44,787 nucleotides of DNA. Source: an uncultured Eubacteriales bacterium. Lineage in GTDB: Bacteria > Bacillota > Clostridia > Christensenellales > Aristaeellaceae. Below the pieces are notes generated by a model that saw nothing but the letters and a program-made list of their open reading frames with translations, was not told where the DNA came from and searched no databases. Shown in pieces: positions 192 to 39,100 of the stretch. The stretch lies in NCBI GenBank assembly GCA_902761755.1, contig CACWLP010000013.1, forward strand, positions 1 to 44,787, read 5' to 3'. A program made the position numbers and the translations under genes. Each line of letters opens with the position of its first letter. Position 1 is the stretch's first letter.

Positions 192-761
192 ATGCGTGTG
201 CCCGGGAAGATCAGCAGATTTCTGGAAAAATGGGGCCATTATCTGCTGGCGGCCCTGTGTGCCGCGGTGATCCTGCTCTCCGGGCTGTGGACCCGCGCCC
301 TCAGCACCCGGGACGCGGAAGCGCTGCACGATACCGCCCAGCGCCTAGCGGACGTGACGGCCCCGCCGGCTGCGTTCATTCCGCTGCGGCCCTGCGCCGG
401 GGCGGTGCTGCGCCCCTTCAGCACGGCGCCGGTGTTCTTTCCGGCGGTGGGCGTGTGGCAGATCCACCCGGGGGTGGATTTTGCGGCGGAGGAGGGAGAG
501 GAGATCTTCGCTGTGGGGGACGGCGCCGTGGCGGCGGTCGCGCCCTATTTGCGGATTGACCACGGCAACGGATACGTTTCCGAATACCGGGGGCTCCGGG
601 AGACGCCTCTGCGCCCCGGCCAGGCGGTCCGGGCGGGGCAGGCGGTGGGCACGGCGGGGGCGGCGGTGCCGTATGAGGGCGCGGGGCACGTGTGCGTCCG
701 CCTGACAAAACAGGAAGAAGCCGTGGGCTTTGGGGATAATTGGTTGACAAATCCTCCCTGA
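192..761 (+). CDS. Membrane-anchored LytM/M23-like protein, SpoIIQ-like
   Basis: A 189-residue protein with one N-terminal membrane helix (about 15-33) and a short M23/LytM domain (about 70-175). The ATG at 192 was chosen over an upstream ATG at 123 because GGAGAGGGGG lies directly before it. The first metal motif is intact (HPGVD, H92 and D96). The HxH motif reads HVC (H166, C168), so the second histidine is a cysteine, and the usual YAHL motif is replaced by EYRGL. Active M23 peptidases need these residues, so this one is probably not a standard endopeptidase. Inactive LytM domains are known in sporulation proteins such as SpoIIQ, which binds SpoIIIAH across the forespore membranes. The size and single helix fit SpoIIQ, but no sporulation neighbour is visible. 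The LytM fold is well supported; the SpoIIQ role is inferred. Confidence 0.72.
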   Translation: MRVPGKISRFLEKWGHYLLAALCAAVILLSGLWTRALSTRDAEALHDTAQRLADVTAPPAAFIPLRPCAGAVLRPFSTAPVFFPAVGVWQIHPGVDFAAEEGEEIFAVGDGAVAAVAPYLRIDHGNGYVSEYRGLRETPLRPGQAVRAGQAVGTAGAAVPYEGAGHVCVRLTKQEEAVGFGDNWLTNPP

Positions 762-773
762 ATTATGTATAAT
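744..773 (+). promoter_or_regulatory. Sigma-A promoter of the nagB operon
   Basis: TTGACA at 744-749 and TATAAT at 768-773 are both exact consensus boxes, 18 bp apart. The expected start is near 780, giving a 5' leader of about 240 nt that contains the glmS ribozyme. The -35 box lies inside the end of the M23-like gene, whose stop is at 759-761, so the promoter overlaps the upstream coding end. Confidence 0.88.
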
Positions 774-850
774 AATTGAAATGAGCGCGGCTTGCCGGGC
801 TCATGAATAAAACAGCTTTTCCGGAAAGGAAGGCAAACAGGAAGGCTGTT

Positions 851-994
851 AGCGCCAGGACCGGGAACGGTCGACGAGGCATGGCGGTTTATCGAAAGAT
901 TCGGCGGATGCCGCCACGGCGTTCAGCGCGCCGAGAGGGAGAAAGCAAAAAGCAGAATCAACACTGTAACAGAGGTTCTCCCGACGCTGACGGC
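851..994 (+). ncRNA. glmS ribozyme (GlcN6P-dependent self-cleaving RNA)
   Basis: The conserved glmS core is readable in order: AGCGCCAG at the cleavage site, GACGAGG, GTTTATCGA and TTCGGCGGATGCC. P1 is 859-862 with 869-872. P2.1 is TGGCGG 882-887 with CCGCCA 911-916. P3 is TCAGCG 923-928 with CGCTGA 985-990. P4 is GGGAGAA 937-943 with TTCTCCC 976-982. By homology, cleavage falls between A851 and G852. In known cases glucosamine-6-phosphate acts as the cofactor, and the cleaved 5'-OH mRNA is degraded by RNase J, lowering enzyme supply. Here the ribozyme sits 27 nt before the nagB start rather than before glmS. The class call is secure; the 3' limit is approximate. Confidence 0.95.
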
Positions 995-1020
995 AATTGA
1001 ATAGAAGGAGTGTTTTCTTT

Positions 1021-1812
1021 ATGCGTGTCGTCATTCAGGAAAACTACGAAAAGATGAGCCTGTGGGCCGCCCGCTATATCGCGGCGAAGATCAACGCCCA
1101 GCCGGCGGAGAAGCCGTTTATCCTGGGCCTGCCCACCGGGTCCAGCCCCATCGGCGTTTATCGGGAGCTGGTGCGGATGAACAGGGCCGGGGAGGTCAGC
1201 TTCAAAAACGTGGTGACCTTCAACATGGACGAATACGTGGGGCTTCCCCATGAGCATGACCAGAGCTACTGGTACTTCATGCACGATAATTTCTTCGACC
1301 ATCTGGTGGATATGAAGCCGGAGAACATCAACATCCTCAACGGCATGGCCGAGGATCCGGAGGCCGAGTGCGCCCGGTATGAAAAGAAGATCGCTTCCTA
1401 CGGCGGCATCGACCTGTTCATGGGCGGCATCGGCGTGGACGGGCACATTGCTTTCAACGAGCCCTTCACGTCCCTGGCGTCCCGGACCGGCATCCGGAAC
1501 CTGACCACCGACACCCGCATCGTGAACAGCCGCTTCTTCGGCAACGATCCCGAAAAGGTGCCGTCCCAGGCGCTGAGCGTGGGCGTGGGCACGGTGACGG
1601 ATTCCCGGGAAGTGCTGATCCTTATCAACGGCCACAACAAGGCCCGGGCTTTGGCGGCTACCGTGGAGGGCGGCATGAGCCATAAATGGACCTGCTCCGC
1701 GCTCCAGATGCACAACGGCGCCATCATCGCCTGCGACGAGGCGGCCTGCGGCGAGCTGACCGTGGATACCTATAAATACTTCCTGGACATTGAGAAGGGT
1801 GAGCGGCTGTAA
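1021..1812 (+). CDS. nagB: Glucosamine-6-phosphate deaminase/isomerase
   Basis: A 263-residue cytoplasmic enzyme interconverting GlcN6P and fructose-6-phosphate plus ammonia. It aligns nearly end to end with E. coli Nag[11 protein letters not shown] carries the D72 equivalent (D70), and [11 protein letters not shown] carries D140, H142 and E147 (E. coli D141, H143, E148). The SLASRT segment of the allosteric GlcNAc6P site is present. AAGGAG at 1005-1010 fixes the ATG at 1021. The stop overlaps the next start (TAATG). NagB is normally catabolic, but this copy lies behind a glmS ribozyme and leads an operon with a GlmU-like acetyltransferase and glmM. That suggests it runs in the aminating direction to make GlcN6P. 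The family is certain; the direction is inference. Confidence 0.95.
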
Positions 1813-2471
1813 TGTATACGATCAATGATCTTTATGACCTGGACCATACCCTGGCCAAGGATTATCTGAGCAAATTCACCTATCCCTGGGAAGCCCTCAA
1901 GGGCATCAAGGACCTGATCCTCTCCCTGGGCCCCGCCCTGGGGGACGATTACGAGGAGCGGGCGGAGCACGTGTGGGTGCATAAAACGGCGAAGGTGTTC
2001 CCCTCGGCGTACCTGGGCGCTCCCTGCATCATCGGGCCCAACACGGAAGTGCGCCACTGCGCCTTCATCCGGGGAAGCGCCCTGGTGGGGGCCGACTGTG
2101 TGGTGGGCAACAGCTGCGAATTGAAAAACGTGATCCTCTTCGACCACGTGCAGACCCCCCATTACAACTATGTGGGCGACAGCATCCTGGGCTATTACAG
2201 CCACATGGGCGCCGGCTCCATCACCTCCAACGTCAAGAGCGACAAGAAGCTGGTGGTGGTGCACAACGGCACCGAGAACATTGAAACCGGCATCAAGAAA
2301 TTCGGCGCCATGGTGGGCGATTACGTGGAAGTGGGATGCAACAGCGTCCTGAATCCCGGCACCGTCATCGGCCGCCACAGCAACGTATACCCCACGTCCT
2401 GCGTGCGCGGCGTGGTGCCTGAAAACTGCATTTTCAAGAACAGCGGCGATATCGTGGAGAAAAGAGGCTGA
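1812..2471 (+). CDS. GlmU-like left-handed beta-helix acetyltransferase
   Basis: A 219-residue protein made mainly of hexapeptide repeats, beginning near VHKTAKVFPSAYLGAPCIIG, which form a left-handed beta-helix trimer. HYNYVGDSILGYYSHMGAG matches the active-site region of the GlmU C-terminal domain and of archaeal ST0452-type sugar-1-phosphate acetyltransferases. The GlmU N-terminal uridylyltransferase domain is absent, although annotations often call this family a UDP-GlcNAc pyrophosphorylase. The expected reaction is GlcN-1-P plus acetyl-CoA to GlcNAc-1-P. It overlaps the nagB stop by one base and ends 3 nt before glmM, so translation is probably coupled. A separate uridylyltransferase is needed to finish UDP-GlcNAc and is not in this window. 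Confidence 0.82.
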   Translation: MYTINDLYDLDHTLAKDYLSKFTYPWEALKGIKDLILSLGPALGDDYEERAEHVWVHKTAKVFPSAYLGAPCIIGPNTEVRHCAFIRGSALVGADCVVGNSCELKNVILFDHVQTPHYNYVGDSILGYYSHMGAGSITSNVKSDKKLVVVHNGTENIETGIKKFGAMVGDYVEVGCNSVLNPGTVIGRHSNVYPTSCVRGVVPENCIFKNSGDIVEKRG

Positions 2472-2474
2472 TTT

Positions 2475-3824
2475 ATGGGCAAATATTTCGGAACCGACGG
2501 CTTCCGCGGCGAAGCCAACAAGAACCTCACCTTCGAGCACGCCATCAAAATCGGCCGGTATCTGGGCTGGTATTACGGGCTGCGGCTGAACCGCAAGGCG
2601 AAGGTGGTCATCGGAAAGGATACACGGCGTTCTTCCTATATGTTTGAATACGCCCTGTGCACGGGCCTGATGGCCTCCGGTGCGGACGCTTACATCATGC
2701 ACGTCACCACCACCCCCTCCGTGGCCTACATCGCCCGGGTGGACGATTTCGACTGCGGCATCATGATCTCCGCTTCCCACAATCCCTATTACGACAACGG
2801 CATCAAGGTGCTCAACGGCAATGGGGAAAAGATGGAAGAGGAAGTGCTGCTCAAGATCGAGGATTACATCGACGGCAAGGGCGAAGTGCCCCTGGCGGAA
2901 CGGGATAAGATCGGCAAGACCGTGGACTACGTGGCGGGCCGCAACCGCTACATCGGCTTCCTGATTTCCCTGTCGAAGTATTCCTTCAAGGATGTGAAGG
3001 TGGGCCTGGACGTGGCCAACGGCGCCTCCTGGCAGATCGCCAAAGCGGTGTTCGACGCCCTGGGCGCCAAGACCTACGTGATGAACGATCATCCCGACGG
3101 CTACAATATCAACACCGACTGCGGCTCCACCCACATCGAGCACCTGCAGAAATTCGTGGAGGGCAACCGGCTGGATATCGGCTTCGCTTTCGACGGCGAC
3201 GCGGACCGCTGCCTGTGCGTGGATGAAAAGGGCAATGTGGTCACCGGCGACCACATCCTGTATATCTACGGCCTGTACATGAAGGAAAGGGGCAAGCTGC
3301 TCAACAACAAGGTGGTCACCACCGTGATGAGCAATTTCGGCCTCTACAAAGCCCTGGACAAGGTGGGCATCGAATACGATAAAACCAAGGTGGGCGACAA
3401 GTACGTCTACGAGAACATGGTGCAGACCGGCAACCGCATCGGCGGCGAACAGAGCGGGCACATCATCTTCTCCAAGTACGAAACCACCGGCGACGGCATC
3501 GTGACCGCCCTGAAGCTGATGGAGGTCATGCTGGCCAAGGAAAAGCCCATGAGCGAGCTGGCCGCTCCCGTGGTGTTCTATCCCCAGGTGCTCAAGAACG
3601 TCCGGGTCAAGAGCAAGCCGGACGCCCAGAACGATCCCGACGTACAGGCGGCGGTGAAAAAGGTCGCCGATACGCTGGGGGATACGGGCCGCATCCTGGT
3701 GCGGGAAAGCGGCACGGAGCCGGTGATCCGCGTGATGGTGGAAGCCGAGAGCAACGAAATCTGCGAAAAGTACGTGGACAGCGTCATCGACGTGATCCGC
3801 GCCAAGGGACATATCGCAGAGTAA
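2475..3824 (+). CDS. glmM: Phosphoglucosamine mutase-type phosphohexomutase
   Basis: A 449-residue alpha-D-phosphohexomutase converting GlcN6P to GlcN1P. All family motifs are intact: the phosphoserine loop ISASHNPYYDNG (S101), the magnesium loop FDGDADRC (D240, D242, D244), the sugar loop GGEQSGH, and the C-terminal phosphate loop RESGTEPVIRVM. Length is typical of GlmM. It is the last gene of the ribozyme-controlled operon, 3 nt after the acetyltransferase, and is followed by a terminator at 3842. Phosphomannomutase activity cannot be excluded from sequence, but the operon context supports the glucosamine substrate. Confidence 0.9.
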   Translation: MGKYFGTDGFRGEANKNLTFEHAIKIGRYLGWYYGLRLNRKAKVVIGKDTRRSSYMFEYALCTGLMASGADAYIMHVTTTPSVAYIARVDDFDCGIMISASHNPYYDNGIKVLNGNGEKMEEEVLLKIEDYIDGKGEVPLAERDKIGKTVDYVAGRNRYIGFLISLSKYSFKDVKVGLDVANGASWQIAKAVFDALGAKTYVMNDHPDGYNINTDCGSTHIEHLQKFVEGNRLDIGFAFDGDADRCLCVDEKGNVVTGDHILYIYGLYMKERGKLLNNKVVTTVMSNFGLYKALDKVGIEYDKTKVGDKYVYENMVQTGNRIGGEQSGHIIFSKYETTGDGIVTALKLMEVMLAKEKPMSELAAPVVFYPQVLKNVRVKSKPDAQNDPDVQAAVKKVADTLGDTGRILVRESGTEPVIRVMVEAESNEICEKYVDSVIDVIRAKGHIAE

Positions 3825-3841
3825 CGGACACACAGATAATA

Positions 3842-3871
3842 ACGCCGTACGGTAAACGCACGGCGTTTTTT
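3842..3871 (+). terminator. Terminator of the nagB-glmM operon
   Basis: ACGCCGT 3842-3848 pairs with ACGGCGT 3860-3866 and runs into a T-rich tail to 3871, 18 nt after the glmM stop. Confidence 0.85.
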
Positions 3872-4214
3872 GCGCACAAAATTGCCGATCCGCGCCGCAG
3901 AACGTGCGCAGGAACAGCAAAAATGCGGGAATACGAAGGGAAAACCCTCAGTTCTTTCTCTGAAAAACGAAAAAATTGAGGGGGATCGGCGAAATGTGCA
4001 CAATCGCGCCTCATCCGTTGTTTCCGGGCTTTTGTACCATATTGTACATGCCGCATGCGTCGGGACGGCTGGGAAACGTTGAAAAACAAGGGCTTTTCTC
4101 ACTTTGGTTTCTGCTTTTCGCTTTGCCGCTTTTTTCCTGCGGTGAACAAATGAAAAGAAAGGAATGAGAAGAAAGAGAGAAAGAAATGAGATAAAAATAC
4201 CCATTTTTCCATTG

Positions 4215-4245
4215 TTGACCTGTACAAAAAATAACAAAATAGAAC
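4215..4245 (+). promoter_or_regulatory. Weak candidate promoter in the 3872-4304 gap
   Basis: The 433-nt gap before the binding-protein gene holds no convincing ORF. It is AT-richer than its surroundings and has a purine-rich stretch around 4150-4195. The best promoter-like pair is TTGACC 4215-4220 and TAGAAC 4240-4245, 19 bp apart. A GTACCATATTGTAC-like partial dyad lies near 4034-4047 and could be an operator. Given the AraC gene at the operon's end, activator-dependent weak boxes are plausible. Low confidence. Confidence 0.3.
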
Positions 4246-4304
4246 CACAGAGTGCAAATGCGCTCAATTCGAGGAACCCCAAAAAATGAAGGAGGAAGGA
4301 AACC

Positions 4305-6032
4305 ATGAAGAAAATCCTGGCTGCCCTGTTGGTTGCTGTGATGCTGCTCTCCCTGGTGCCTGCTGTGCTGGCCGAAGGCGAAGAACCCATCACCCTGACC
4401 GTGTTCCGCGGCGATCCCGGCGATCAGCCCACGGAAGACAACAAGATCTACAAGCTGATCGAGGAAAAGTTTGGCGTTAAGTTCAGCTTCTCCTACCTGG
4501 CCGGCGACCTGGATCAGACCCTGAGCATTCAGCTCGCGGGCGACGTGTATCCGGATCTGTTCGACGGCGGCAACAGCGCTGACCTGATCATCAGCGGCGG
4601 CGCCCTGATCAACCTGCTGGACTACATCAGCCCCGAAAAGACCCCCCGTCTGTGGGCCCACATCGAGCCCCAGAAGGCCCGCCTGATCGAGAAGGATGCT
4701 GATGGCAACGACGTGCTCTACATCATCCCCAACTATGGCCTGCCGGATGGCCCCCAGATCGCCCTGAGCGTCGGCGGCCCCGCCTTCTTCATTCAGAAGC
4801 AGGTTCTGGAATGGGACGATTATCCCACCATCAAGACCCTGGATGAATACTTCGATCTGCTGGAGCGCTTCCTGGATGCCAACCCCACGGACGAGAACGG
4901 CACTCCCTACACCGGCTTCGGCATCCTGTGCGAAGACTGGCGTCATTTCTGCCTGATCAACCCCGTGCAGCATCTGATGGGCCGTCCCAACGACGGTGAA
5001 GTGTACATCTGCGTCACCGATCAGAACTACGAAGTGACCGGCAACGATCCCTCCGTGGAATTCAAGACCGAGACCTTCATCGACAAGCCCTATGCCAAGG
5101 CCTACTACAAGAAGCTGAACGATGCGTTCCATGCGGGCCTCATCGACCGCAACACCTTCTCCATGAGCTATGACCAGTACATCGCCCTGATTTCCAGCGG
5201 CACCATGCTGGGCATGTTCGACCAGGCCTGGGACTTCGGCACCGCTTCTTCCGCCCTGGTGGACGCCAAGATGTATGACCGCACCTACGTGGCCCTGGGC
5301 CTCGTGTACGATCCCGACTACGTGAACGGCGCTGAGATCGAAGAGCACTACCTGAACGGCTCTCTGCCCAATGTCCGCCGCGGCTTCGGTATCTCCACCA
5401 CCTGCCAGTGCCCGGAACGCATCATTGCCATGTGGGAAGAAATGCTCTCCGACGAATGGCAGCTGATCTTCAACTGGGGCATCGAGGGTGAAGACTACTA
5501 CATCACCGAAGACGGCCGTCTGAACATGACCGAAGAACAGTACGCCAACACCCAGAACTCTCAGTGGAAGCTGGCCAACAAGGCTGACGGCTTCTTCCAG
5601 AGCAGCCCCAAGAAGCAGGGCTGGATCATGAACGACATCCAGGTTGGCGACAAGGTCGTCAAGGCTGGCAACTGCTGGGAACCCGGCAACCAGGATGAAA
5701 TCGTGTTCGGTCTGATGAACGAATACGACAAGGAATTCCTGGCCGCCTATGGCTACAAGAAGTTCGCTGACTTCGTGAATCCGCCCATCGAGCTGGCTCC
5801 CTACGGCGAAGCCTGGCAGATCGACTACACCCCCGTGACCGTGGCGCATGACAACTTCCTGAAGGTGCAGGATCGCGTGCTGCCCGAACTGATCCAGTGT
5901 GACCCGGCCGAATACGACGCCAAGTGGGATGCCTTCGTGGATGAAATCACCCCCTACTGCGACGAATTTGCCGCCTTCATGCAGGATGCGGTCGTTAAGG
6001 AAGCCCATAAGGTTCTCGACAACGTCCAGTAA
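4305..6032 (+). CDS. Extracellular solute-binding protein, LplA-like (CUT1)
   Basis: A 575-residue exported protein. Residues 1-23 form a signal peptide ending VPAVLA. There is no cysteine at or near the cleavage site, so it lacks the lipobox usual for Gram-positive binding proteins. The mature start (ITLTVFRGDPGDQP) and the IQLAGDVYPDLFDGGNSADLI region fit the large LplA/YtcQ type of sugar-binding proteins. AAGGAGGAAGG precedes the ATG at 4305. The substrate is unknown, probably an oligosaccharide. A perfect terminator hairpin at 6049 separates it from its permease genes, which would leave the binding protein in excess. Retention at the cell surface without a lipid anchor is a puzzle. Confidence 0.85.
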   Translation: MKKILAALLVAVMLLSLVPAVLAEGEEPITLTVFRGDPGDQPTEDNKIYKLIEEKFGVKFSFSYLAGDLDQTLSIQLAGDVYPDLFDGGNSADLIISGGALINLLDYISPEKTPRLWAHIEPQKARLIEKDADGNDVLYIIPNYGLPDGPQIALSVGGPAFFIQKQVLEWDDYPTIKTLDEYFDLLERFLDANPTDENGTPYTGFGILCEDWRHFCLINPVQHLMGRPNDGEVYICVTDQNYEVTGNDPSVEFKTETFIDKPYAKAYYKKLNDAFHAGLIDRNTFSMSYDQYIALISSGTMLGMFDQAWDFGTASSALVDAKMYDRTYVALGLVYDPDYVNGAEIEEHYLNGSLPNVRRGFGISTTCQCPERIIAMWEEMLSDEWQLIFNWGIEGEDYYITEDGRLNMTEEQYANTQNSQWKLANKADGFFQSSPKKQGWIMNDIQVGDKVVKAGNCWEPGNQDEIVFGLMNEYDKEFLAAYGYKKFADFVNPPIELAPYGEAWQIDYTPVTVAHDNFLKVQDRVLPELIQCDPAEYDAKWDAFVDEITPYCDEFAAFMQDAVVKEAHKVLDNVQ

Positions 6033-6048
6033 TCTAAGCTAACCTACG

Positions 6049-6085
6049 CCAGAGGGGAGAGGTTCTTCTCTCCCCTCTGGTTTTT
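6049..6085 (+). terminator. Intercistronic terminator after the binding protein gene
   Basis: Bases 6049-6060 pair perfectly with 6069-6080 (12 bp), followed by TTTTT 6081-6085. It lies inside the transporter operon and no promoter is seen after it, so it probably acts as a leaky terminator. Only part of the transcripts would then reach the permeases. Confidence 0.85.
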
Positions 6086-6103
6086 CGGAAAGGAGTCATG
6101 GGT

Positions 6104-7096
6104 ATGACCGGTGTTGCTAAAACCCCTGAAAGGGCCTTGAAGAAAAACAAGGCAGGCTTTTTCCATGTGCTCGGCAGTCAATGGCAGCTGGCGCTCATGT
6201 CCGTTCCGATGCTGCTGTACGTGTTACTGTTCAATTATGGCCCCCTGTGGGGCTGGATCAACGCCTTCAAGGATATCGCCCATGCCCGCGGCACCTGGGC
6301 GGATTTCCTCAAGGGCAAGGATGCGGCCTGGTACGGGCTGCAGAACTTTGAAAACCTCTTCCGGCCCGGCGCCATCATGTTTACGGACACCATCAAGAAT
6401 ACCGTGGCCATGAGCCTGATCAACCTGGTGCTGGGTACGGTGTCCGCCATCTTGCTGGCCATCCTGCTCAACGAAGTGCGGCAGAAGTCCTTCAAGCGCA
6501 CCGTGCAGACGGTGACCTACCTTCCTCACTTCCTGAGTATGGTTATCGTGGTCGGTATCGCGCAGATCATTTTCGACAGCAGTACCTTGAACCCGGGGCC
6601 CTTAAACAGCCTGCTGCTCAGCACGGGCATCGTGAAGCAGGGCCCGGACTGGCTGAACACGCCGGGCTACTTCTGGTGGCTGGTCGGCGTCATCAACGTT
6701 TGGAAAGAAGTCGGCTGGGGCACCATCATTTACATCTCCGCCATGACGGGCATCGACCCCTGCCTCTATGAGGCCGCTTCCATCGACGGCGCAGGCCGCT
6801 GGCAGCGGATCCTCCATGTTACCCTCCCCGGCATCCGTTCCACCTTCGTCATCCTTCTGATTATGAACATCGGCCACCTTCTGGATACCGGCTTCGAAAT
6901 GCAGTATCTGCTGAAGCGCAACGCCACCGAGCAGGTCGCCTACACCATCGACCTGTACGTGATGGAATATGGTATCCGGCAGAATGACTACGGCCTGGCT
7001 ACTGCAGCCGGCATCTTTAAGAGCGTGATTGCAATCTTCCTTCTCACAGGCGCGAATTTCATCTCCAAGAAACTCGGCGAAGATTCGCTGATGTGA
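6104..7096 (+). CDS. CUT1 sugar ABC permease, LplB-like
   Basis: A 330-residue integral membrane protein with about six helices. The first is around 28-48 (LALMSVPMLLYVLLFNYGP). The EAA loop for ATPase contact reads LYEAASIDGAGRWQRILHV. It matches the LplB/YteP family, which pairs with YtcP-like permeases and large binding proteins. ATGs occur at 6098 and 6104; AGGAG at 6091-6095 is only 2 nt from the first and 8 nt from the second, so 6104 is preferred. No ATPase gene is in this operon. Related systems borrow MsmX, and an MsmX-like gene lies convergently at 10231-11358. Confidence 0.9.
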   Translation: MTGVAKTPERALKKNKAGFFHVLGSQWQLALMSVPMLLYVLLFNYGPLWGWINAFKDIAHARGTWADFLKGKDAAWYGLQNFENLFRPGAIMFTDTIKNTVAMSLINLVLGTVSAILLAILLNEVRQKSFKRTVQTVTYLPHFLSMVIVVGIAQIIFDSSTLNPGPLNSLLLSTGIVKQGPDWLNTPGYFWWLVGVINVWKEVGWGTIIYISAMTGIDPCLYEAASIDGAGRWQRILHVTLPGIRSTFVILLIMNIGHLLDTGFEMQYLLKRNATEQVAYTIDLYVMEYGIRQNDYGLATAAGIFKSVIAIFLLTGANFISKKLGEDSLM

Positions 7097-20980: not shown

Positions 20981-22582
20981 ATGAAGCGGGCGATCTGCGT
21001 TTTTCTCGCGCTGATGCTGCTGACGGGCGCCGCCGCGGCGGACGGCGGCCGCGTGCGGGATGAAATCGCTGTGGATGGCGTTTCCTTTGAGGACGCTGCG
21101 GACGTATCGGACAACAATCGGGTATTTTACGAAATTTTCGTGGGCTCCTTCTCCGATTCCGACGGGGACGGCGTGGGGGATCTGCGGGGCATTATCAACC
21201 GGATGGATTACCTGAACGACGGGGATCCCGCCTCCGGCCTCAGCCTGGGCGTGGAGGGCCTCTGGCTGACGCCCATTTTCCAGTCGCCTTCCTATCATAA
21301 ATACGACGTGACGGATTTTTACCGGGTGGACCCGGCTTTCGGCACGGAAGCGGATCTGGAAGAACTGATCGGGCTGTGTCATGAACGGGGGGTCAAGCTG
21401 ATCCTGGATCTGCCCATCAACCACACCGCCACGGACTGCCGCTGGTTCAAAAACTTCGTCAACGCCCATCTGATGCACAACCCGGGCAACGATTATTACA
21501 ATTTCTATCATTGGCTGGAGGGCGATGAAAAGGCCCCCGCGGGGCAGCACTACGCCCGGGTGTCCAATCTGGATCTGCGGTACGAGGCGAATTTTTCCGA
21601 TTCCATGCCGGAGCCGGACTTTGACCAGCCCCTGGTGCGGCAGACGTTCCTGGATGTGGCGAAGCACTACCTGGCGCTGGGGGTGGACGGTTTCCGCTTC
21701 GACGCGGCCAAGTACATTTACTTCGGGGACAACGAAAAGAGCGCCGCGTTCTGGGAATGGTACATCGGGGAACTGAAAAAAGAAAAGCCGGACCTGTACA
21801 CCGTGGCGGAGGTCTGGGACGGGGACGGGGTCATCGACCGGTATATCCCCATGACGGACTGCTTCAATTTCTCCGCCAGCCAGGCCAGCGGCATCATTGC
21901 GGAAACCGCCCAGGCGGGGGATGTGAACCGCTTTACCGCCTACGTGGAAGCCCGGCAGAAACAGCTCCGCGCCCTGCGGACGGATGCCCGGGAAGTGCTG
22001 TTCGTTTCCAACCACGATATGGACCGGGCGTCGGGCTATCTGGGCATGTCCAACGGGCGGATGGCCACAGCCGCCAATCTGTACCTGCTGTCTCCCGGCT
22101 CGCCTTTCATTTACTACGGCGAGGAAATCGGGCTGCGGGGTTCCCGGGGCTCCGCCAATACGGATGCCAACCGCCGCCTGGCCATGGTGTGGGGGGATGG
22201 CGACACCGTGCAGGATCCGGCGGGCGCCACCTACGCCAAGCAGACGCCCTATTCCGTGCAGGACCTCAGGGGCATGCGGAGCAGCCTGCTCAATCATTAC
22301 AAAAAGCTGCTGATGATCCGCCGGGCCAATCCGGAGATCGCCCGGGGCGAATATACCGCGCTGAAATTCACCGGCACCAAGCTGGGCGGCTTTGTCAGCG
22401 CCTGGGAAGGAAAGCGCGTGATGGTGCTGCACAACACCACCAACGCCCCCCTGACGGTGGATCTGCAGGATGTGAACGAAGCGGGCTTTACCCGGATCGT
22501 GGCGGTCGCCGGAGCGGGGGAAGCCGCGCTGGAAGGCACCCAAGTGACCCTGGACGGGCAGACCAGCGCGGTGCTGCGCTGA
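20981..22582 (+). CDS. GH13 alpha-amylase family glycosidase, exported
   Basis: A 533-residue alpha-glucan-active enzyme with a signal peptide (about 1-20, ending GAAAA). Catalytic regions are intact: DLPINHT (143-149), GFRFD with nucleophile D241, TVAEVWD with acid/base E277, and FVSNHD with D346. A C-terminal beta-sandwich domain follows from about 455. The YEIFVGSFSDSDGDGVGDL start matches GH13 amylases and oligosaccharide hydrolases that need calcium. GAAGGGA precedes the ATG. It is first in a four-gene operon with GH127, a serine hydrolase and a GNAT. Exact specificity (endo-amylase, alpha-glucosidase or transferase) cannot be read from sequence. Confidence 0.9.
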   Translation: MKRAICVFLALMLLTGAAAADGGRVRDEIAVDGVSFEDAADVSDNNRVFYEIFVGSFSDSDGDGVGDLRGIINRMDYLNDGDPASGLSLGVEGLWLTPIFQSPSYHKYDVTDFYRVDPAFGTEADLEELIGLCHERGVKLILDLPINHTATDCRWFKNFVNAHLMHNPGNDYYNFYHWLEGDEKAPAGQHYARVSNLDLRYEANFSDSMPEPDFDQPLVRQTFLDVAKHYLALGVDGFRFDAAKYIYFGDNEKSAAFWEWYIGELKKEKPDLYTVAEVWDGDGVIDRYIPMTDCFNFSASQASGIIAETAQAGDVNRFTAYVEARQKQLRALRTDAREVLFVSNHDMDRASGYLGMSNGRMATAANLYLLSPGSPFIYYGEEIGLRGSRGSANTDANRRLAMVWGDGDTVQDPAGATYAKQTPYSVQDLRGMRSSLLNHYKKLLMIRRANPEIARGEYTALKFTGTKLGGFVSAWEGKRVMVLHNTTNAPLTVDLQDVNEAGFTRIVAVAGAGEAALEGTQVTLDGQTSAVLR

Positions 22583-22595
22583 CGGGGAGGAAAAA

Positions 22596-24416
22596 ATGCG
22601 GGAAATCAAGGGAAGGGACGCCGTGATCCTGGACGGCGAAATGCGCCGCCGGGAACGGGACAACCGGGCCTACATGCTGCGGCTGGACCGGGAAAACCTG
22701 ATGCGGAATTACCTGCTGGAAGCCGGGCTGTGGACCAGCGCGGATCTGCCGGGGTATATTCACGGGGGCTGGGAATCCCCCACCTGTCAGCTGCGGGGGC
22801 ACTTTGCCGGGCATTATCTCAGCGCCGCGGCGAAGATCTGGGAAGCCACGGGCGATCCGGAAATCAAAGGCCGGGCCGACGCCATGGTGGAGGATCTGTA
22901 CCGCTGCCAGCAGGCCAACGGCGACGGCTGGGCCGGGTCCATCCCGGAAAAATACCTGGACTGGATCGCCCGGGGCAAGCCCGTCTGGGCGCCCCAGTAT
23001 ACCCTGCACAAGACGATGATGGGCCTGGTGGATATGGCGAAGCTCACCGGGAACAGGCGGGCGCTGGAGATCGCGGACCGGTGGGGTGAATGGTTCGACG
23101 GCTGGACAAGCCGGTTTGACCGGGAACAGATGGACGAAATCCTGGACGTGGAAACCGGCGGGATGCTGGAAATCTGGGCGGATCTGCTGGAATTGACGGG
23201 GAAGGAACGATACAGGCGGCTGCTGGAAAAATACTACCGGGGCCGGCTGTTCGACGAGCTGCTGGCCGGGCGGGATCCCCTGACCAACATGCACGCCAAC
23301 ACCACCATCCCCGAGGTGATCGGCTGCGCCCGGGCTTACGAGGTGACGGGAGAGGAAAAGTACCGCAGGATCGCGGAGGCCTACTGGAAGTGCGCCGTTA
23401 CCGACCGGGGCGCATACTGCACCGGCGGGCAGACCTGCGGGGAGATCTGGACCCCCAAGGGGGACCAGCAGAGCCGCCTGGGGCGCAAGAACCAGGAGCA
23501 CTGCACGGTCTACAACATGATGCGGCTGGCGGATTTCCTGTTCCGCTGGACGAAGGACGTGCGGTATGCCGATTACATCGAACGCAATCTGTACAACGGG
23601 ATCTTTGCCCAGGGATATTACCGCTGGCGGGGCACCAACGGCTATCAGCCGCCCGAGAAAGCCTTCGGGCTGATCGCCTATTTCATGCCCCTCCGGGGCG
23701 GCGACCGCAAGGGATGGGGCTCGGAAACCAACGATTTCTTCTGCTGCCACGGCACCCTGGTGCAGGCCAACGCCGCGCTGAACCGCTATCTGTACTACCA
23801 GGACGGGCGGGATATTTACGTGTGCCAGTTCTTTGAAAGCGAAGCGCGGTTTGAGATCGACGGCCATCCGGTGAAGCTGCGCCAGCGCATCGACCGGCAG
23901 ACCGGCTCCTTCCACCTGTCCAGCGATTCCTCCGGGCGGCAGAGCATCGGGGAAGTGACCTCCCGGGTGGTGAACAATCCGGAAAAGCTCCGGTTGGTGT
24001 TCGAGGTGGAAACGGACGCGCCGGCGTCCTTCCGCCTGCACGTGCGCCGGCCCTTCTGGGCGGGGCAGGGGGAGAGCCGCTTTCTCACCGCAGAACGGGA
24101 AGAATGGAAAACGGGCGATCATTTCATCGTGGAATACGGAAAAACCGTTTGGTGCGAGCCCCTGGGCGGCGATCCCGGCCGGGTGGCATATCTCTACGGC
24201 CCGGCGGTGCTGGCGGGGCTGACGGATACGGAAATCACCCTGCATCCGGATCCTGCCCGCCCGGAAACCGCCCTGCGGCGCTGCAACGAAAGGGAATGGG
24301 GCTCCTGGACGGAGGAATTCATCACCGTCACCGAGGAGAGGGCCGTGTATTTCGTGCCCCTTTACGATATCGGCAGCGAGCATTACGCCGTTTATTTCCG
24401 GATCGCCGGACGGTAA
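22596..24416 (+). CDS. GH127 (DUF1680) beta-L-arabinofuranosidase-like enzyme
   Basis: A 606-residue cytoplasmic enzyme without a signal peptide. It has an alpha/alpha barrel followed by beta-sandwich domains. The zinc-cysteine active site of GH127 is present: E301 and C303 in NQEHCTVYNMM, and C383/C384 in FFCCHGTL, with spacing close to that of Bifidobacterium HypBA1 (E338, C340, C417, C418). The second of these regions supplies the nucleophilic cysteine. It likely removes terminal L-arabinofuranose from imported oligosaccharides; related DUF1680 families (GH146 and others) have different linkage preferences. GGGGAGG precedes the ATG, 14 nt after the GH13 stop. Confidence 0.88.
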   Translation: MREIKGRDAVILDGEMRRRERDNRAYMLRLDRENLMRNYLLEAGLWTSADLPGYIHGGWESPTCQLRGHFAGHYLSAAAKIWEATGDPEIKGRADAMVEDLYRCQQANGDGWAGSIPEKYLDWIARGKPVWAPQYTLHKTMMGLVDMAKLTGNRRALEIADRWGEWFDGWTSRFDREQMDEILDVETGGMLEIWADLLELTGKERYRRLLEKYYRGRLFDELLAGRDPLTNMHANTTIPEVIGCARAYEVTGEEKYRRIAEAYWKCAVTDRGAYCTGGQTCGEIWTPKGDQQSRLGRKNQEHCTVYNMMRLADFLFRWTKDVRYADYIERNLYNGIFAQGYYRWRGTNGYQPPEKAFGLIAYFMPLRGGDRKGWGSETNDFFCCHGTLVQANAALNRYLYYQDGRDIYVCQFFESEARFEIDGHPVKLRQRIDRQTGSFHLSSDSSGRQSIGEVTSRVVNNPEKLRLVFEVETDAPASFRLHVRRPFWAGQGESRFLTAEREEWKTGDHFIVEYGKTVWCEPLGGDPGRVAYLYGPAVLAGLTDTEITLHPDPARPETALRRCNEREWGSWTEEFITVTEERAVYFVPLYDIGSEHYAVYFRIAGR

Positions 24417-33130: not shown

Positions 33131-36100
33131 ATGAACAAAAAGCTGCAGCGATTCCTTTCCATCCTGTGCGCCCTGGCCATGCTGCTGAGCTGCATGCCCG
33201 CGGGCGTACTGGCGGAAAACGCCACCGCGGCGGGAACGGCCGACGAGGGGCCGGCGCAGGAAAATGGCGCGCCGGAAAAAGCGGAGGAAAACAAAGAAGA
33301 AGCGCCGGAGCTGGTGCCTGATCTGGAAATGAATTTGGATGAGCCGCTGGATCTCGCGCTCAAGGAAGGCCAAAGGAAGATCGTTCGCCTGATGGTGCAG
33401 CAGCGCGGATTCCTGCAGGTAACGGCCGAAAGCACGGATCTGGGCCCGACGTCCGGAAAAGCGCTGACCGTGACGCTGTTCCGGCAGGACCGGCCCGGCG
33501 TGCGCTTCGGCATGCAGAACGCCAAGGACGGCAAGCTGGAAGGCAACTGGGAAGTTTTTGCCGGGGCGTATCTGCTGGTCTTTGAATGCGAGAAGGACGA
33601 CGCCTTCAAGGTCACGGCGGCGATGAAGACGCCGGAAGAGCCCGCTGCCCAGGAGCCGGAGCAACAGATCGAGGGCGAACCGGAAAAGGAGCCGGAGCAG
33701 CAGATCGAAGGGGAACCGGAGAAGGAACCGGAGCAGAAGATCGAGGGGGAACCGGAGAAAGAGCCGGAGCAGCAGATCGAAGGGGAACCGGAGAAAGAGC
33801 CGGAGCAGAAGATCGAAGGGGAGCCGGAGCAAAAGATCGAAGGGGAACCGGAGAAGGAACCGGAGCAGCAGATCGAGGGGGAACCGGAGAAAGAGCCGGA
33901 GCAGAAGATCGAAGGGGAACCGGAAAAGGAGCCGGAGCAGAAGATCGAAGGGGAACCGGAGAAAGAGCCGGAGCAGAAGATCGAAGGGGAACCGGAAAAG
34001 GAACCGGAGCAGCAGATCGAGGGCGAACCGGAAAAGGAGCCGGAGCAGCAGATTGAGGGCGAACCGGAAAAGGAGCCGGAGCAGCAGATCGAAGGGGAAC
34101 CGGAGAAAGAGCCGGAGCAGAAGAAGGGGGAACCGGAGAAGGAACCGGAGCAGCAGATCGAGGGCGAACCGGAAAAGGAGCCGGAGCAGAAGAAGGGGGA
34201 ACCGGAGAAGGAACCGGAGCAGAAGATCGAAGGGGAGCCGGAGCAGAAGATCGAAGGGGAGCCGGAGCAGAAGATCGAAGGGGAACCGGAGCAGAAGATC
34301 GAGGGGGAACCGGAGAAAGAACCGGAGCAGAAGATCGAAGGGGAACCGGAAAAGGAACCGGAGCAAAAGATCGAAGGGGAACCGGAGAAAGAGCCGGAGC
34401 AGCAGATCGAGGGCGAACCGGAAAAGGAGCCGGAGCAGAAGATCGAAGGGGAACCGGAGAAGAAGCCGGAGCAAAAGATCGAGGGGGAACCGGAGAAAGA
34501 GCCGGAGCAGAAGAAGGGGGAACCGGAGAAAGAACCGGAGCAGAAGATCGAAGGGGAGCCGGAGCAGAAGATCGAAGGGGAACCGGAAAAAGAGCCGGAG
34601 CAAAAGATCGAAGGGGAACCGGAGAAAGAGCCGGAGCAGCAGATCGAAGGGGAACCGGAGAAAGAACCGGAGCAGAAGATCGAAGGGGAGCCGGAGCAGA
34701 AGATCGAAGGGGAACCGGAGAAAGAGCCGGAGCAGCAGATCGAAGGGGAACCGGAGAAGGAGCCGGAGCAGAAGATCGAAGGGGAGCCGGAAAAAGAGCC
34801 GGAGCAGAAGATCGAAGGGGAACCGGAGAAAGAGCCGGAACAGAAGATCGAAGGGGAACCGGAGCAAAAGATCGAAGGGGAACCGGAGAAAGAGCCGGAG
34901 CAGAAGATCGAAGGGGAACCGGAGAAAGAGCCGGAGCAGAAGATCGAAGGGGAGCCGGAGAAAGAGCCGGAGCAGAAGATCGAAGGCGAACCGGAAAAGG
35001 AACCGGAGCAGAAAACGGAAGACGGGCAGGATGCCGAAAAAGCCAAGGAAACCGTGACGCTGCTGGAGAGCGACGTGCGGGTGGAGGCGCTGTCTCAGGA
35101 TGAGACGGATGCGCTGGTGGCCCGATACCTGACGGCGCCTGCGAAAGCCGCGGGGGCGAAGGGCGGCCGGCAAATGCTGCGCGCCACCGTCAGCGCGGAC
35201 CGGAAAAACGAGGCGTACGCCGCGTTCGATATCTCCCTGGACAACGCCGAAATGCAGGACTACGGCGGATACCGCGTGCCTGTGCAGCTGGACAGCGCCA
35301 TTGATCTGACCGGCGCCCGGGCCGCCGCGGGCGAAAAAGACGTGTTCACCGTAAAGAACGTGGTATACACCCTGTACCACATTCACGAGAACGAAAAGGG
35401 CGAGACGGTGGTGGATGTGATCCCCGCCGAAGCGTTCACCGCCCAGGACAAAGACGGATACCTGACCGGCTTCACCTTTGAAACCGACGGGTTTTCTACT
35501 TATGTATTAAAGTACACCGTGGACTTCCACTACGACGGCGTGGATTATTCCATCGAGGGCGGCAGCCAGATCCTGCTGAGCGATCTGATCGCGCAGATGC
35601 AGATCATGAACGGCGACGCCCTGCTGGATGTAATGGACGTAAAGGAAGTGACGTTCACCAATCGGCATCTGGTGAAAGTGGAGCAGGTCAGCGGCCTGAT
35701 CGTGTACAACGGCGCCGCCAGCGTGGACGTGGGGGAGAAGGATTTCCTGCTCACCAGCGAAATGCCGTTCTCCACCGACGAGGCCCTGACCATCACCCTC
35801 ACCGACGGCCAGCCCATCGTGCTGAACGTGACGGACGCGGCGTATTGGATCTATCTTGAAAAGGGACAGAAAGAATTTGCCCTGAAGCCGTATTTCCTGG
35901 CGCAGAGCAATCTGGGCGCCGACGTGTACGATTACGCGATCAGCTGCTCGATCTACTTCCGCGCTTCCAGCGGCGATTATGTGTACGATTACGGCTATAC
36001 CAACGATTCCAACGGCTTCACGGTCACGAAGCTGAACAATATCCCCGCCGGCGATTATATGTATATCGGGTTCTACGACTGGGATGCGAGCAGCTGGGTC

Positions 36101-39100
36101 AAGGATCAGGCCGGCACCACCCTGTGGCTGTGCTTTGTCGCCCCCGAAGCCGTGACCTGCTCCGACGGCGTGTTCACGTATGCCGTGGACGAGGAGGAAA
36201 AGACCGCGCAGATCACCGGCCTGGATGAAAATTACAGCGGCGACGGCAACCTGGTGATTCCCGCCACGGTTGAGTACGGGGAGGGCGAATTCACCGTCAA
36301 AGGGATCGCCGCGAGCGCCTTTGATTCCGACAACGACGACAGCAAGCCCGATAACATCAAGAGCGGCGTGATCCGCTCCGTCACATTCAGCAATACGGCG
36401 GCGCTCACCATCGGCAACTATGCGTTCTACGGCTGCAAGAACCTGGCCCGGGTCGGCGGGGACGGCCCCATCGCTTCCCTGGGACAGCAGGTGTTCTCCT
36501 ATGACGACAGCCTGGCAACCATCACCCTGACCGGCAGCGACCTGCGCACCAGCGCGTATGTGTTCTGCTACTGCGGCGCGCTGGAGAGCTTTACGCTCAA
36601 CGGCACGGTGTATAGTTCGCTGGGAAGCCGTTCCTTCGAGGGCTGCACCAGCCTGAAAACCGTTACCATCAACGCCCCGATGGATACGATCGACGCGCAT
36701 GAATTCGAGGGGTGCTCCGCACTGGAGACCGTTACCATCGCTTTGGACGACGGCGATTCGCTGGCGGTTCTGCCCAACGCCTTCAACGGCTGCGTCAAGC
36801 TGCATTCCGTCATCAAGAACCGGCAGCAGATCTTTACCAACGAAAACGATTATTCGCAGTACTTCACCGTGGCAGCCTCCGAAGCGGGCGCGCCCATCGG
36901 CGCTCAGCTGGCAATCGAAGCGGCGACCGTTTCCGCCGCGGCCCAGGCAGCCGTGGAGCAGGCTGCCCAGGAAGCCCTGGCTCCGGAGGAGATCGGGGTC
37001 GGCTATGTGAAAATCAGCCTGCTGGCTCCCGACGGGACGGAGTGCGCGAACGCCGACGCGCAGATCCAGGCATACCAGTATCCTGGCGTGTCTTACGCCG
37101 GCCTTGTGGAAAATGCGAAGTGCCGGGTCTATCCGATCAGCGGCGATACGGTGGGCACCTGGACGGATACGGTCAAGCCCGTCGTCAGCGGTAAGGAGAT
37201 CGTTTCCGAGACCCTGGTGAACGCCAAACAGGGGACCTACGCCATCGCGTATCAGGCTGATTCCACGCTGTACCACGACGATATGTTCTACTACGAGCTG
37301 GACGACACCGATCCGCAGAACATCGTGGCGAAGATCACGGGGATCTACAGCAAGTACACCGGCACGATCCTGAGGTTTACCGGCAGGACCCGCAATGAGG
37401 ACGCCTATCTCGTCCCCACGGTCCCGGACGGCGTATTCAGCAACAATTCCAAGATCACCGCCATCATCTTCAGCAACAAGGATGAGATCACGGTGCAGGG
37501 CAAGGCCTTCCAGAGCATGACGGCCCTGCAGACCATCCACTTCGGCGGAGAGGGGCTGGTATCCTTCGTCGGGAACGACTGGGACCGTCCGGTGGGCTAT
37601 TGCACGGCCCTTACCACCGTGACCGGCACCGGCCCGGTCAGCTTCAACGCCATGGGGATCTTCGAGGGCTGCTCCTCCCTGACCAACGTGAAGCTGGGCG
37701 CCGTGAAGAAGATCAATCAGAATACCTTTATCGACAACAATGCCCTGTATTCCTTCGAGGCCGAAAGCATCGAAGAAATCGGTCTCCAGGGCTTCAACCG
37801 CTGCACGGGGCTGAAATCCTTCCGGGTCAACGGCAACGTGGGGACCATCGGCGAATGGGCCTTCGACGGCTGCAAGGCGATGGAAACTTTCATCGTGATG
37901 GGCACCGTTGACACGATGCTGGGCAGCGCCGTGAATACGGATAAGATGCGCGTCGCCGTGTTCAAGGGCGGCGTCAAGAAGATCAGCGCCTGGGCGTTCC
38001 GGGGCGAGCCCTTCGGACAGGACAACAACCTGATCTACGTGGGCGGCGTTGGCGGCAGCAACACCATGGACTGCTACGCTTTCGGCGGCAGCGATTATCG
38101 GGGCAACGCCTATTTCAACGTTACCAGCGCAGCCCTGAAAACCGCCCTGGGCAAGAGCTCGGCGTACGATCTGCATGTGGATCTGCTGCATTGCTCCGAT
38201 CAGGACAAGAGCGCGGATATGTACGTCAGCGAAAACGGCTATTCCTATGACCTGGGCACCCAGGAGGAACCCTGCACCAGCTTTACCACCGCCATGGCCA
38301 TCATGTACAACCGCATGGACGACATGGAACGGTTTGACCGGGTCTGCGCCGCGGCGGGCGTTGCCGACCTGGGGCTGGTATTCTACGGCGACATGGAGGC
38401 CGGCTTCAACGGCTTCGTGCTGCATGTGGTGAAGGGCGGAAGGAACCAGGATGTTACGGCCGTTGCGTTCCCGGAGGACCTGTACGGCAATTACGTCAGC
38501 ACCCACAGCTACATTGCCAATGCCCCATCGACATTCAGCTATCTCAAAGCCGTCATTTTTGAGGACGGCATGACGGAGATCGGCATTCCCGACGGCGCCA
38601 TGCAGAATTTCCCGAATCTGGCGTCCGTCGAAGTGAAGAACGCCGACGCCGTGGTCACCATCGGCGTGGAAGCCTTCAAGGGCACCGGGGTCAATACCAT
38701 CTGCGAAGCGAAGCAGATCGTGTCCAGCCGGGACGGCGTGGTGACCATTGAAAAAGGAGCGAACGCGCCCATCGGCACGGCGCTGGCCATCGAAGACGCC
38801 GACGGGGACCGGGATGCGGTCATCCAGGCCGCGCGAGCGGAGGGCCTGTTTGAGGACAGCGACGACGCGGATATTCAGGTCAGGTATTTCGATGTTTCCC
38901 TGGTGTCTCCCCAGAATGAAAAAGTGAAGAATGTGCCGGCTAAAGTAACGGCCGTCCAGAAGCTGGCGGTATACACCGGGGCCGATACCATCGCGCCCAA
39001 TGCCTTCGCCTTCTTCCACATGGAGGATGCCGCCACGCTGGCTACGAAGGAGTTTGCCGCGGATCAGTCCGCCGGCACCATCACCTTCTCCTTCGCCGCC

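Follow-up and report, generated by a model that had tools for sequence, protein, structure and literature searches.

The glmS ribozyme is customarily presented as a control element of glmS mRNAs. In a stretch of 44,787 nucleotides (nt) from an uncultured Eubacteriales bacterium of the family Aristaeellaceae (contig CACWLP010000013.1, analysed at its full length and called the window hereafter), a complete ribozyme of this class leads nagB, which is followed by an acetyltransferase gene and glmM. The reading that we favour, with a probability of roughly 0.58, is that the ribozyme would exert a glucosamine-6-phosphate (GlcN6P) feedback on a NagB that aminates beside GlmS, in a module that has spread horizontally. 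The NagB reaction is reversible, and the enzyme is usually regarded as catabolic. A ribozyme on nagB in tens of gut genomes makes the RNA sensor a clue to the direction of this reaction; on a NagB annotated as catabolic, it suggests that the cell treats NagB as a GlcN6P producer.

Among the literature matches listed, in which subscription papers were thinly covered, no title or abstract opening described a glmS ribozyme on nagB. Of 463 glmS ribozymes, the abstract of a 2011 survey by McCown reportedly locates all except two in glmS mRNAs.

A glmS ribozyme ahead of nagB

The features of the unit are the following.

744 to 773, plus strand: promoter-like site of the sigma-70 type, TTGACA-18-TATAAT, agreeing with the consensus at 12 of 12 bases (no more than a consensus match)
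840 to 992, plus strand: glmS ribozyme, RF00234, 63.7 bits against a gathering threshold of 37, E 1.7e-12, model positions 1-167 of 167
1021 to 1812, plus strand: nagB, GlcN6P deaminase/isomerase family, 263 amino acids (aa), TIGR00502, 381.5 bits against a cut-off of 236.9
1812 to 2471, plus strand: left-handed beta-helix (LbH) acetyltransferase resembling the C-terminal half of GlmU, 219 aa, C-terminal part of Arch_glmU, 5.7e-41
2475 to 3824, plus strand: glmM, phosphoglucosamine mutase, 449 aa, TIGR01455, 545.1 bits against a cut-off of 447.55
3841 to 3872, plus strand: terminator-like hairpin and T run 3' of glmM (the hairpin, 3841-3867, is listed on the minus strand; the T run was read directly on the plus strand)

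In an Rfam scan of the window, RF00234 was the sole match over gathering. nagB begins 28 nt past the ribozyme match, and the three genes stand head to tail, with a 1-nt overlap or a 3-nt gap. We take the cleavage junction to be at A851/G852, before GCGCC. The site at 744-773 is the only promoter-like match within 600-4300; such sites are no more numerous than expected by chance (shuffle mean 1.7 at ≥9/12), and only the strength of this one is exceptional. An earlier note, made from the letters of this DNA, had claimed an intact glmS ribozyme, a consensus promoter, and nagB, a GlmU-like acetyltransferase and glmM in succession, all of which the matches above bear out. It had also found no glmS in the window, and a genome-wide GlmS search indeed gave no match on this contig. 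Its view that the gene order follows the pathway fails, as GlmM acts before the glucosamine-1-phosphate acetyltransferase in the pathway to uridine diphosphate N-acetylglucosamine (UDP-GlcNAc).

Judged by sequence, the window ribozyme is more than a chance match. Model R1, built from 15 of the 21 ribozymes found in the family (see below), scores it at 141.3 bits, the window being part of the training set. We aligned 50 sequences, comprising the window and nagB-linked and glmS-linked ribozymes, some of them used in building the model; the proportion of cells that pair is 96.7%, and changes on both sides are seen in 22 of 29 pairs, in an alignment that is model-fitted and hence biased towards its structure. 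Numerous core columns are invariant across 21 and 15 sequences, and the conserved core is the same as in glmS-linked ribozymes of the family. The RNA might no longer be a GlcN6P-triggered off switch, being inactive, responsive to another ligand, or cleaved in a way that stabilises the mRNA. Four family members do score low, at 41-46 bits, and that of G231 (36.4) falls below gathering. Set against the invariant columns, the covariation and the core shared with glmS-linked ribozymes, this makes an altered RNA quite improbable. In the alignment, the ribozymes of L019 and L021-L023 have extra or diverged sequence around the P1 region.

Frequency of the ribozyme-nagB pairing

In a family sample of 200 genomes, where linked genes were identified by tblastn with the genes of the window, RF00234 was present in 21. 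Thirteen of these ribozymes are on nagB-containing units and 5 on glmS; the remaining 3 lead other genes or could not be assigned (G017, LbH-glmM alone; G102, contig end; G005, behind glmM). G005 led no further: nothing, GlmS included, was recognised downstream of its ribozyme. An order sample of 297 genomes gave 17 with RF00234 matches, 13 of them over gathering; six lead glmS. This sample added nagB-linked ribozymes in other families, f10 (G245, G330, G444) and f31 (G368, below gathering). Three weak order-level matches (L264-L266) told us nothing, their neighbours matching no query.

We also collected the best 80 of at least 579 confirmed nagB loci, mostly from ruminant gut bacteria to judge by the record titles. 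In 39 of these 80 closest loci, model R1 finds a ribozyme scoring 100 bits or more, each time 5' of the nagB unit and on its coding strand, while 38 further, ribozyme-free loci reached 11.6 bits at best. The earlier note had proposed scanning RF00234 hits for cases upstream of nagB, and the 13 of 21 family ribozymes and the 39 of 80 loci are such cases. Named loci and numbered genomes overlap (L149/G198, L181/G009, L166/G245, L144/G444), and their counts are not additive. Whole-genome counts of ribozymes and GlmS refer to the 37 genomes whose loci were seen by a first ribozyme pattern; L176 and L181, found by the model, are outside this set. The ribozyme at the nagB unit was the only one found in 36 of these 37 genomes. 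G220 carries two: a ribozyme of 69.1 bits lies a short way 5' of glmS, another of 73.4 bits upstream of nagB.

nagB as a probable target of the ribozyme

Among the named loci, nagB stands first in or inside units of various orders: ribozyme-nagB-LbH-glmM, ribozyme-LbH-nagB-glmM, ribozyme-LbH-glmM-nagB and ribozyme-nagB-glmM. Some contain glmS as well (L198, ribozyme-LbH-nagB-glmM-glmS; L211, ribozyme-glmM-nagB-glmS; L160, glmS-ribozyme-LbH-nagB-glmM), and L177 has a ribozyme-led cluster with nagB and glmS and a 1.1 kb gap. LbH, GlmM or GlmS is nearby in 31 of the 39 ribozyme loci. In the other eight, all three are absent within 3.6 kb of nagB, L154, L155 and L169 having less than 2.2 kb of downstream sequence. 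In two of the eight (L161, L171) the predicted gene that comes next has the opposite orientation. In another, L184, a gene of the UDP-GlcNAc-binding YvcK/GlmR family (TIGR01826, 268.2 bits) follows nagB by 12 nt; B. subtilis GlmR is described as diverting carbon into peptidoglycan (PMC6171935).

The selected target could be LbH-glmM, with nagB a passenger. The 31 loci with pathway genes nearby would agree with this, and so would the unit of G017 (L006/L133), in which LbH-glmM follows the ribozyme and neither glmS nor nagB was recognised in the vicinity; that genome is 97% complete, with GlmS below cut-off or absent. A passenger is hard to reconcile with the eight loci where nagB has none of these genes, or with nagB directly after the ribozyme in many orders, and there is no clear use in repressing GlcN6P consumers at high GlcN6P. 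We consider it very unlikely. Because of the eight loci, the permuted orders and the separate nagB ribozyme of G220, we conclude that nagB itself is a putative target, and control of nagB by the ribozyme is highly probable.

Two known arrangements resemble this one. The B. subtilis-type glmS ribozyme shares the RNA family, the conserved core and the pathway metabolite; it is located classically on glmS mRNA, whereas here nagB is led, usually with LbH and glmM and sometimes with glmS. In glmM-ribozyme-glmS units of the same order (L005, L008, L255, L256, L257) the ribozyme also lies by glmM within a UDP-GlcNAc unit, but glmS stands where nagB stands here.

A proposed GlcN6P feedback on an aminating NagB

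GlcN6P is the cofactor with which the glmS ribozyme cuts, and the cut represses the downstream gene (PMC2258182, PMC6171935). In the mechanism that we propose, the glmS-class ribozyme in the 5' leader would sense GlcN6P; when this is abundant, the nagB-LbH-glmM mRNA would be cut and its expression lowered. NagB would be aminating at least part of the time, making GlcN6P from fructose-6-phosphate (Fru6P) and ammonia. An ammonia-fed second entry to UDP-GlcNAc would result, alongside the glutamine-dependent GlmS, the supply of ammonia being the presumed reason for it. Under the ribozyme, a GlcN6P producer gives negative feedback and a GlcN6P consumer positive feedback. Where nagB and glmS both carry or share a ribozyme, the two would be controlled alike.

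Comparative genomics leans towards a biosynthetic NagB, through the units with glmM and LbH, the sharing with glmS or a yvcK/glmR-type gene, the two ribozymes of G220 and the carriers without GlmS. To this extent the claim of the earlier note that NagB runs backwards finds support; the direction itself is something we infer. We incline, with some reserve, to NagB as a GlcN6P producer in vivo. The fuller proposal, in which a horizontally spread module would bring GlcN6P-ribozyme feedback to an ammonia-dependent NagB as a second de novo source of GlcN6P, or the sole one for some lineages, has in our view an even chance. With one NagA query, NagA was found beside nagB in 3 of 128 loci of relatives (G089, G148, L167), none of them bearing a ribozyme, and the nagB of the window is not beside nagA.

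A precedent for synthesis exists in Giardia lamblia, on whose NagB we know of no ribozyme. This enzyme, of the NagB family, was measured in the synthetic direction, making GlcN6P from Fru6P and ammonia, and was unmodified by N-acetylglucosamine-6-phosphate (GlcNAc6P); it differs in being eukaryotic and mostly monomeric, and in that its direction was measured where ours is deduced (PMC4281351).

Observations that weigh against this reading

Several observations count against an aminating NagB under the ribozyme. The family sample holds 10 more genomes from the genus of the source genome; the ribozyme was absent from all of them, and five (G094, G134, G150, G176, G186) have a close nagB, with LbH, GlmM and GlmS not recognised alongside. 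Of the 80 close nagB loci, 41 showed no ribozyme, and 21 of these have LbH, GlmM or GlmS nearby. The ribozyme of G017 precedes LbH-glmM, adjoining neither nagB nor glmS. In 48 of 53 genome entries (two being duplicates, and the ribozyme of G368 being below gathering), no NagB other than the ribozyme-linked one exceeded the TIGR00502 cut-off, and a NagA-family match with E <1e-69 was found in 12 of the 13 ribozyme-nagB family genomes. Because of these two results, the ribozyme-linked NagB may also serve the catabolism of N-acetylglucosamine (GlcNAc).

The positions Asp70, Asp140, His142 and Glu147, presumably catalytic, are kept in 11 of 11 NagB of the clade, as in ordinary NagB. At the positions of the E. 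coli allosteric site, Arg158 is replaced by Gly and Lys160 by Arg in all 80 loci, with or without ribozyme, and the window NagB has the Gly. Both residues are in the residue list for GlcNAc6P binding, and Giardia NagB has Arg at the Arg158 position, as against Gly here (PMC4281351). The two replacements, which we count in favour of our reading, indicate that NagB of this clade probably does not read the GlcNAc6P signal in the usual manner. The change is common to loci without a ribozyme, and is therefore no marker of the direction of NagB.

Akkermansia muciniphila offers a further warning. A gut bacterium without GlmS, it has NagB as its sole candidate enzyme between Fru6P and GlcN6P, like the GlmS-less carriers discussed below; this NagB aminates poorly (Km 41 mM for NH4, 5.5 mM for Fru6P) and is kinetically catabolic, and the organism requires GlcNAc or N-acetylgalactosamine (PMC5902328). 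The part of that paper available makes no mention of a ribozyme.

It may thus be that NagB remains a deaminase, and that high GlcN6P shuts the whole unit, or that NagB is a relief valve equilibrating GlcN6P with Fru6P during flow through the pathway. The ordinary catalytic residues, the sole NagB of most entries, the NagA-family matches, the GlmS of most carriers and the inability of the Akkermansia enzyme to aminate physiologically (PMC5902328) would all suit such a deaminase. Yet an enzyme lost as its substrate accumulates amounts to positive feedback, opposite to the pattern of S. mutans, where under GlcNAc NagB goes up and GlmS down (PMC3306399). Moreover, nagB and glmS in shared ribozyme-led clusters would make a futile cycle, and two near-complete genomes without GlmS carry the module. 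On balance we find a deaminase unlikely, if the most serious objection to an aminating NagB.

GlmS in the source genome and in other carriers

The source genome (2.2 Mb, 46 contigs, 73% complete; the window is its entire contig 13) has a full GlmS on contig 4, of 742.9 bits, which begins with MCGIVGYTG, the start of an N-terminal Cys glutaminase. Its glmS is preceded by a gltD-like gene, judged from the translation. The idea that the genome has no glmS was thereby rejected. A ribozyme on this glmS was rejected as well: none was found at the locus even in a permissive Rfam scan, and the genome's sole RF00234 match is in the window. The earlier note held that an ordinary glmS in another part of the genome, bearing a ribozyme too, would count against it; half of this holds, as the glmS does exist but no ribozyme was found on it. 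The genome holds one NagB. No match to NagA was found in it, which has little weight at 73% completeness.

GlmS over the cut-off was found in 28 of the 37 ribozyme-nagB genomes of the named set and in 10 of the 13 of the family, a further point against the aminating reading. The notion of a ribozyme on nagB "instead of glmS" has to be given up, and so has replacement of GlmS by NagB as a general rule, since 9 of 37 and 3 of 13 carriers are without GlmS over the cut-off. Because most carriers keep GlmS, the module would usually be an addition to it. The three family carriers without GlmS over the cut-off are G064 (96% complete, 1% contamination), G116 (89%) and G198 (72%). The nine of the named set include G218, which is G245 (98% complete, 1% contamination; identical contig coordinates), and also G222 and G232, which hold large pieces of GlmS. 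The two near-complete ribozyme-nagB genomes without GlmS are thus G064 (96%) and G245/G218 (98%). In some lineages GlcN6P may be made de novo by the module alone.

GlmS over the curated cut-off is lacking in 83 of the 200 family genomes, 15 of which are at least 95% complete. It is lacking in 18 of 49 genomes with this NagB class versus 65 of 151 without, completeness varying among them; this also speaks against our reading, led us to reject the idea that GlmS loss tracks this NagB class, and makes absence of GlmS weak evidence in itself. GlmS over the cut-off was missing throughout three genera of the family sample, g38 (7 of 7 genomes), g18 (5 of 5) and g4 (5 of 5). Two genomes of one genus, G115 (96%) and G164 (94%), are both GlmS-less and have an ordinary NagB, about 41% identical, beside glmM and LbH (L140, in G115, 3950-6959; L141, in G164); no ribozyme was found at L140 or L141.

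Probable horizontal spread of the module

NagB is more uniform than the genomes that carry it. RplB could be compared in 20 of 30 genomes (the 10 left out, the source genome among them, had no RplB match): pairwise identities were 54-98% (median 67) for RplB versus 82.5-97.7% (median 89) for NagB, with a rank correlation of 0.11 (p 0.12; the pairs are not independent). FastTree trees of the two proteins, compared by eye, differ. Identity to the proteins of the source genome, across 24 genomes, was 41-77% for GlmS and 77-90% for NagB. In the same 24 genomes, the GC content at third codon positions (GC3) of nagB runs from 0.33 to 0.89. The simplest reading would be transfer, then adaptation to the base composition of the host.

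By its topology, a NagB tree of the 80 loci and the window places the ribozyme loci in one crown clade, mixed with ribozyme-free ones; parsimony counts 11 gains or losses of the ribozyme. At the base of the tree the loci lack it, and mostly have no LbH, GlmM or GlmS nearby either. We are confident, short of certainty, that horizontal transfer has carried the module through gut Bacillota, those of ruminants and others.

An assembly or binning artefact might be suspected, nearly all carrier records being metagenome-assembled, to judge by their titles, and the source genome incomplete. But ribozyme and genes share one contig in tens of assemblies, and one carrier, Ruminococcaceae bacterium P7, is not labelled as metagenome-assembled or uncultured. 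Misbinning does not account for the range of nagB GC3, and an artefact is hardly credible.

If a horizontally spread, aminating NagB is real, glutamine-free synthesis of wall sugars may be favoured where ammonia is plentiful, as in the rumen. NagB of gut bacteria would then have to be reannotated, and compounds directed against the glmS ribozyme might hit the nagB route too.

GlmU and other genes of the window

The LbH protein falls short of a full GlmU (140.7 bits against a cut-off of 292.1 for Arch_glmU), the C-terminal half alone being present. No full GlmU over the cut-off was found in the source genome or in the 12 further members of its genus that were searched (0/13), and 5 of these 12 have a free match to the N-terminal uridyltransferase, matches to the C-terminal half being separate. 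For these two reasons GlmU looks split in the genus.

Upstream of the ribozyme, the frame at 192-761 has matches to M23 peptidases. The open frame at 35507-44653 on the minus strand codes for 3048 aa; scanned as three pieces, it matched nothing in Pfam at 1e-5. An alpha-amylase frame and then a GH127 beta-L-arabinofuranosidase frame occupy 20981-24416 on the plus strand.

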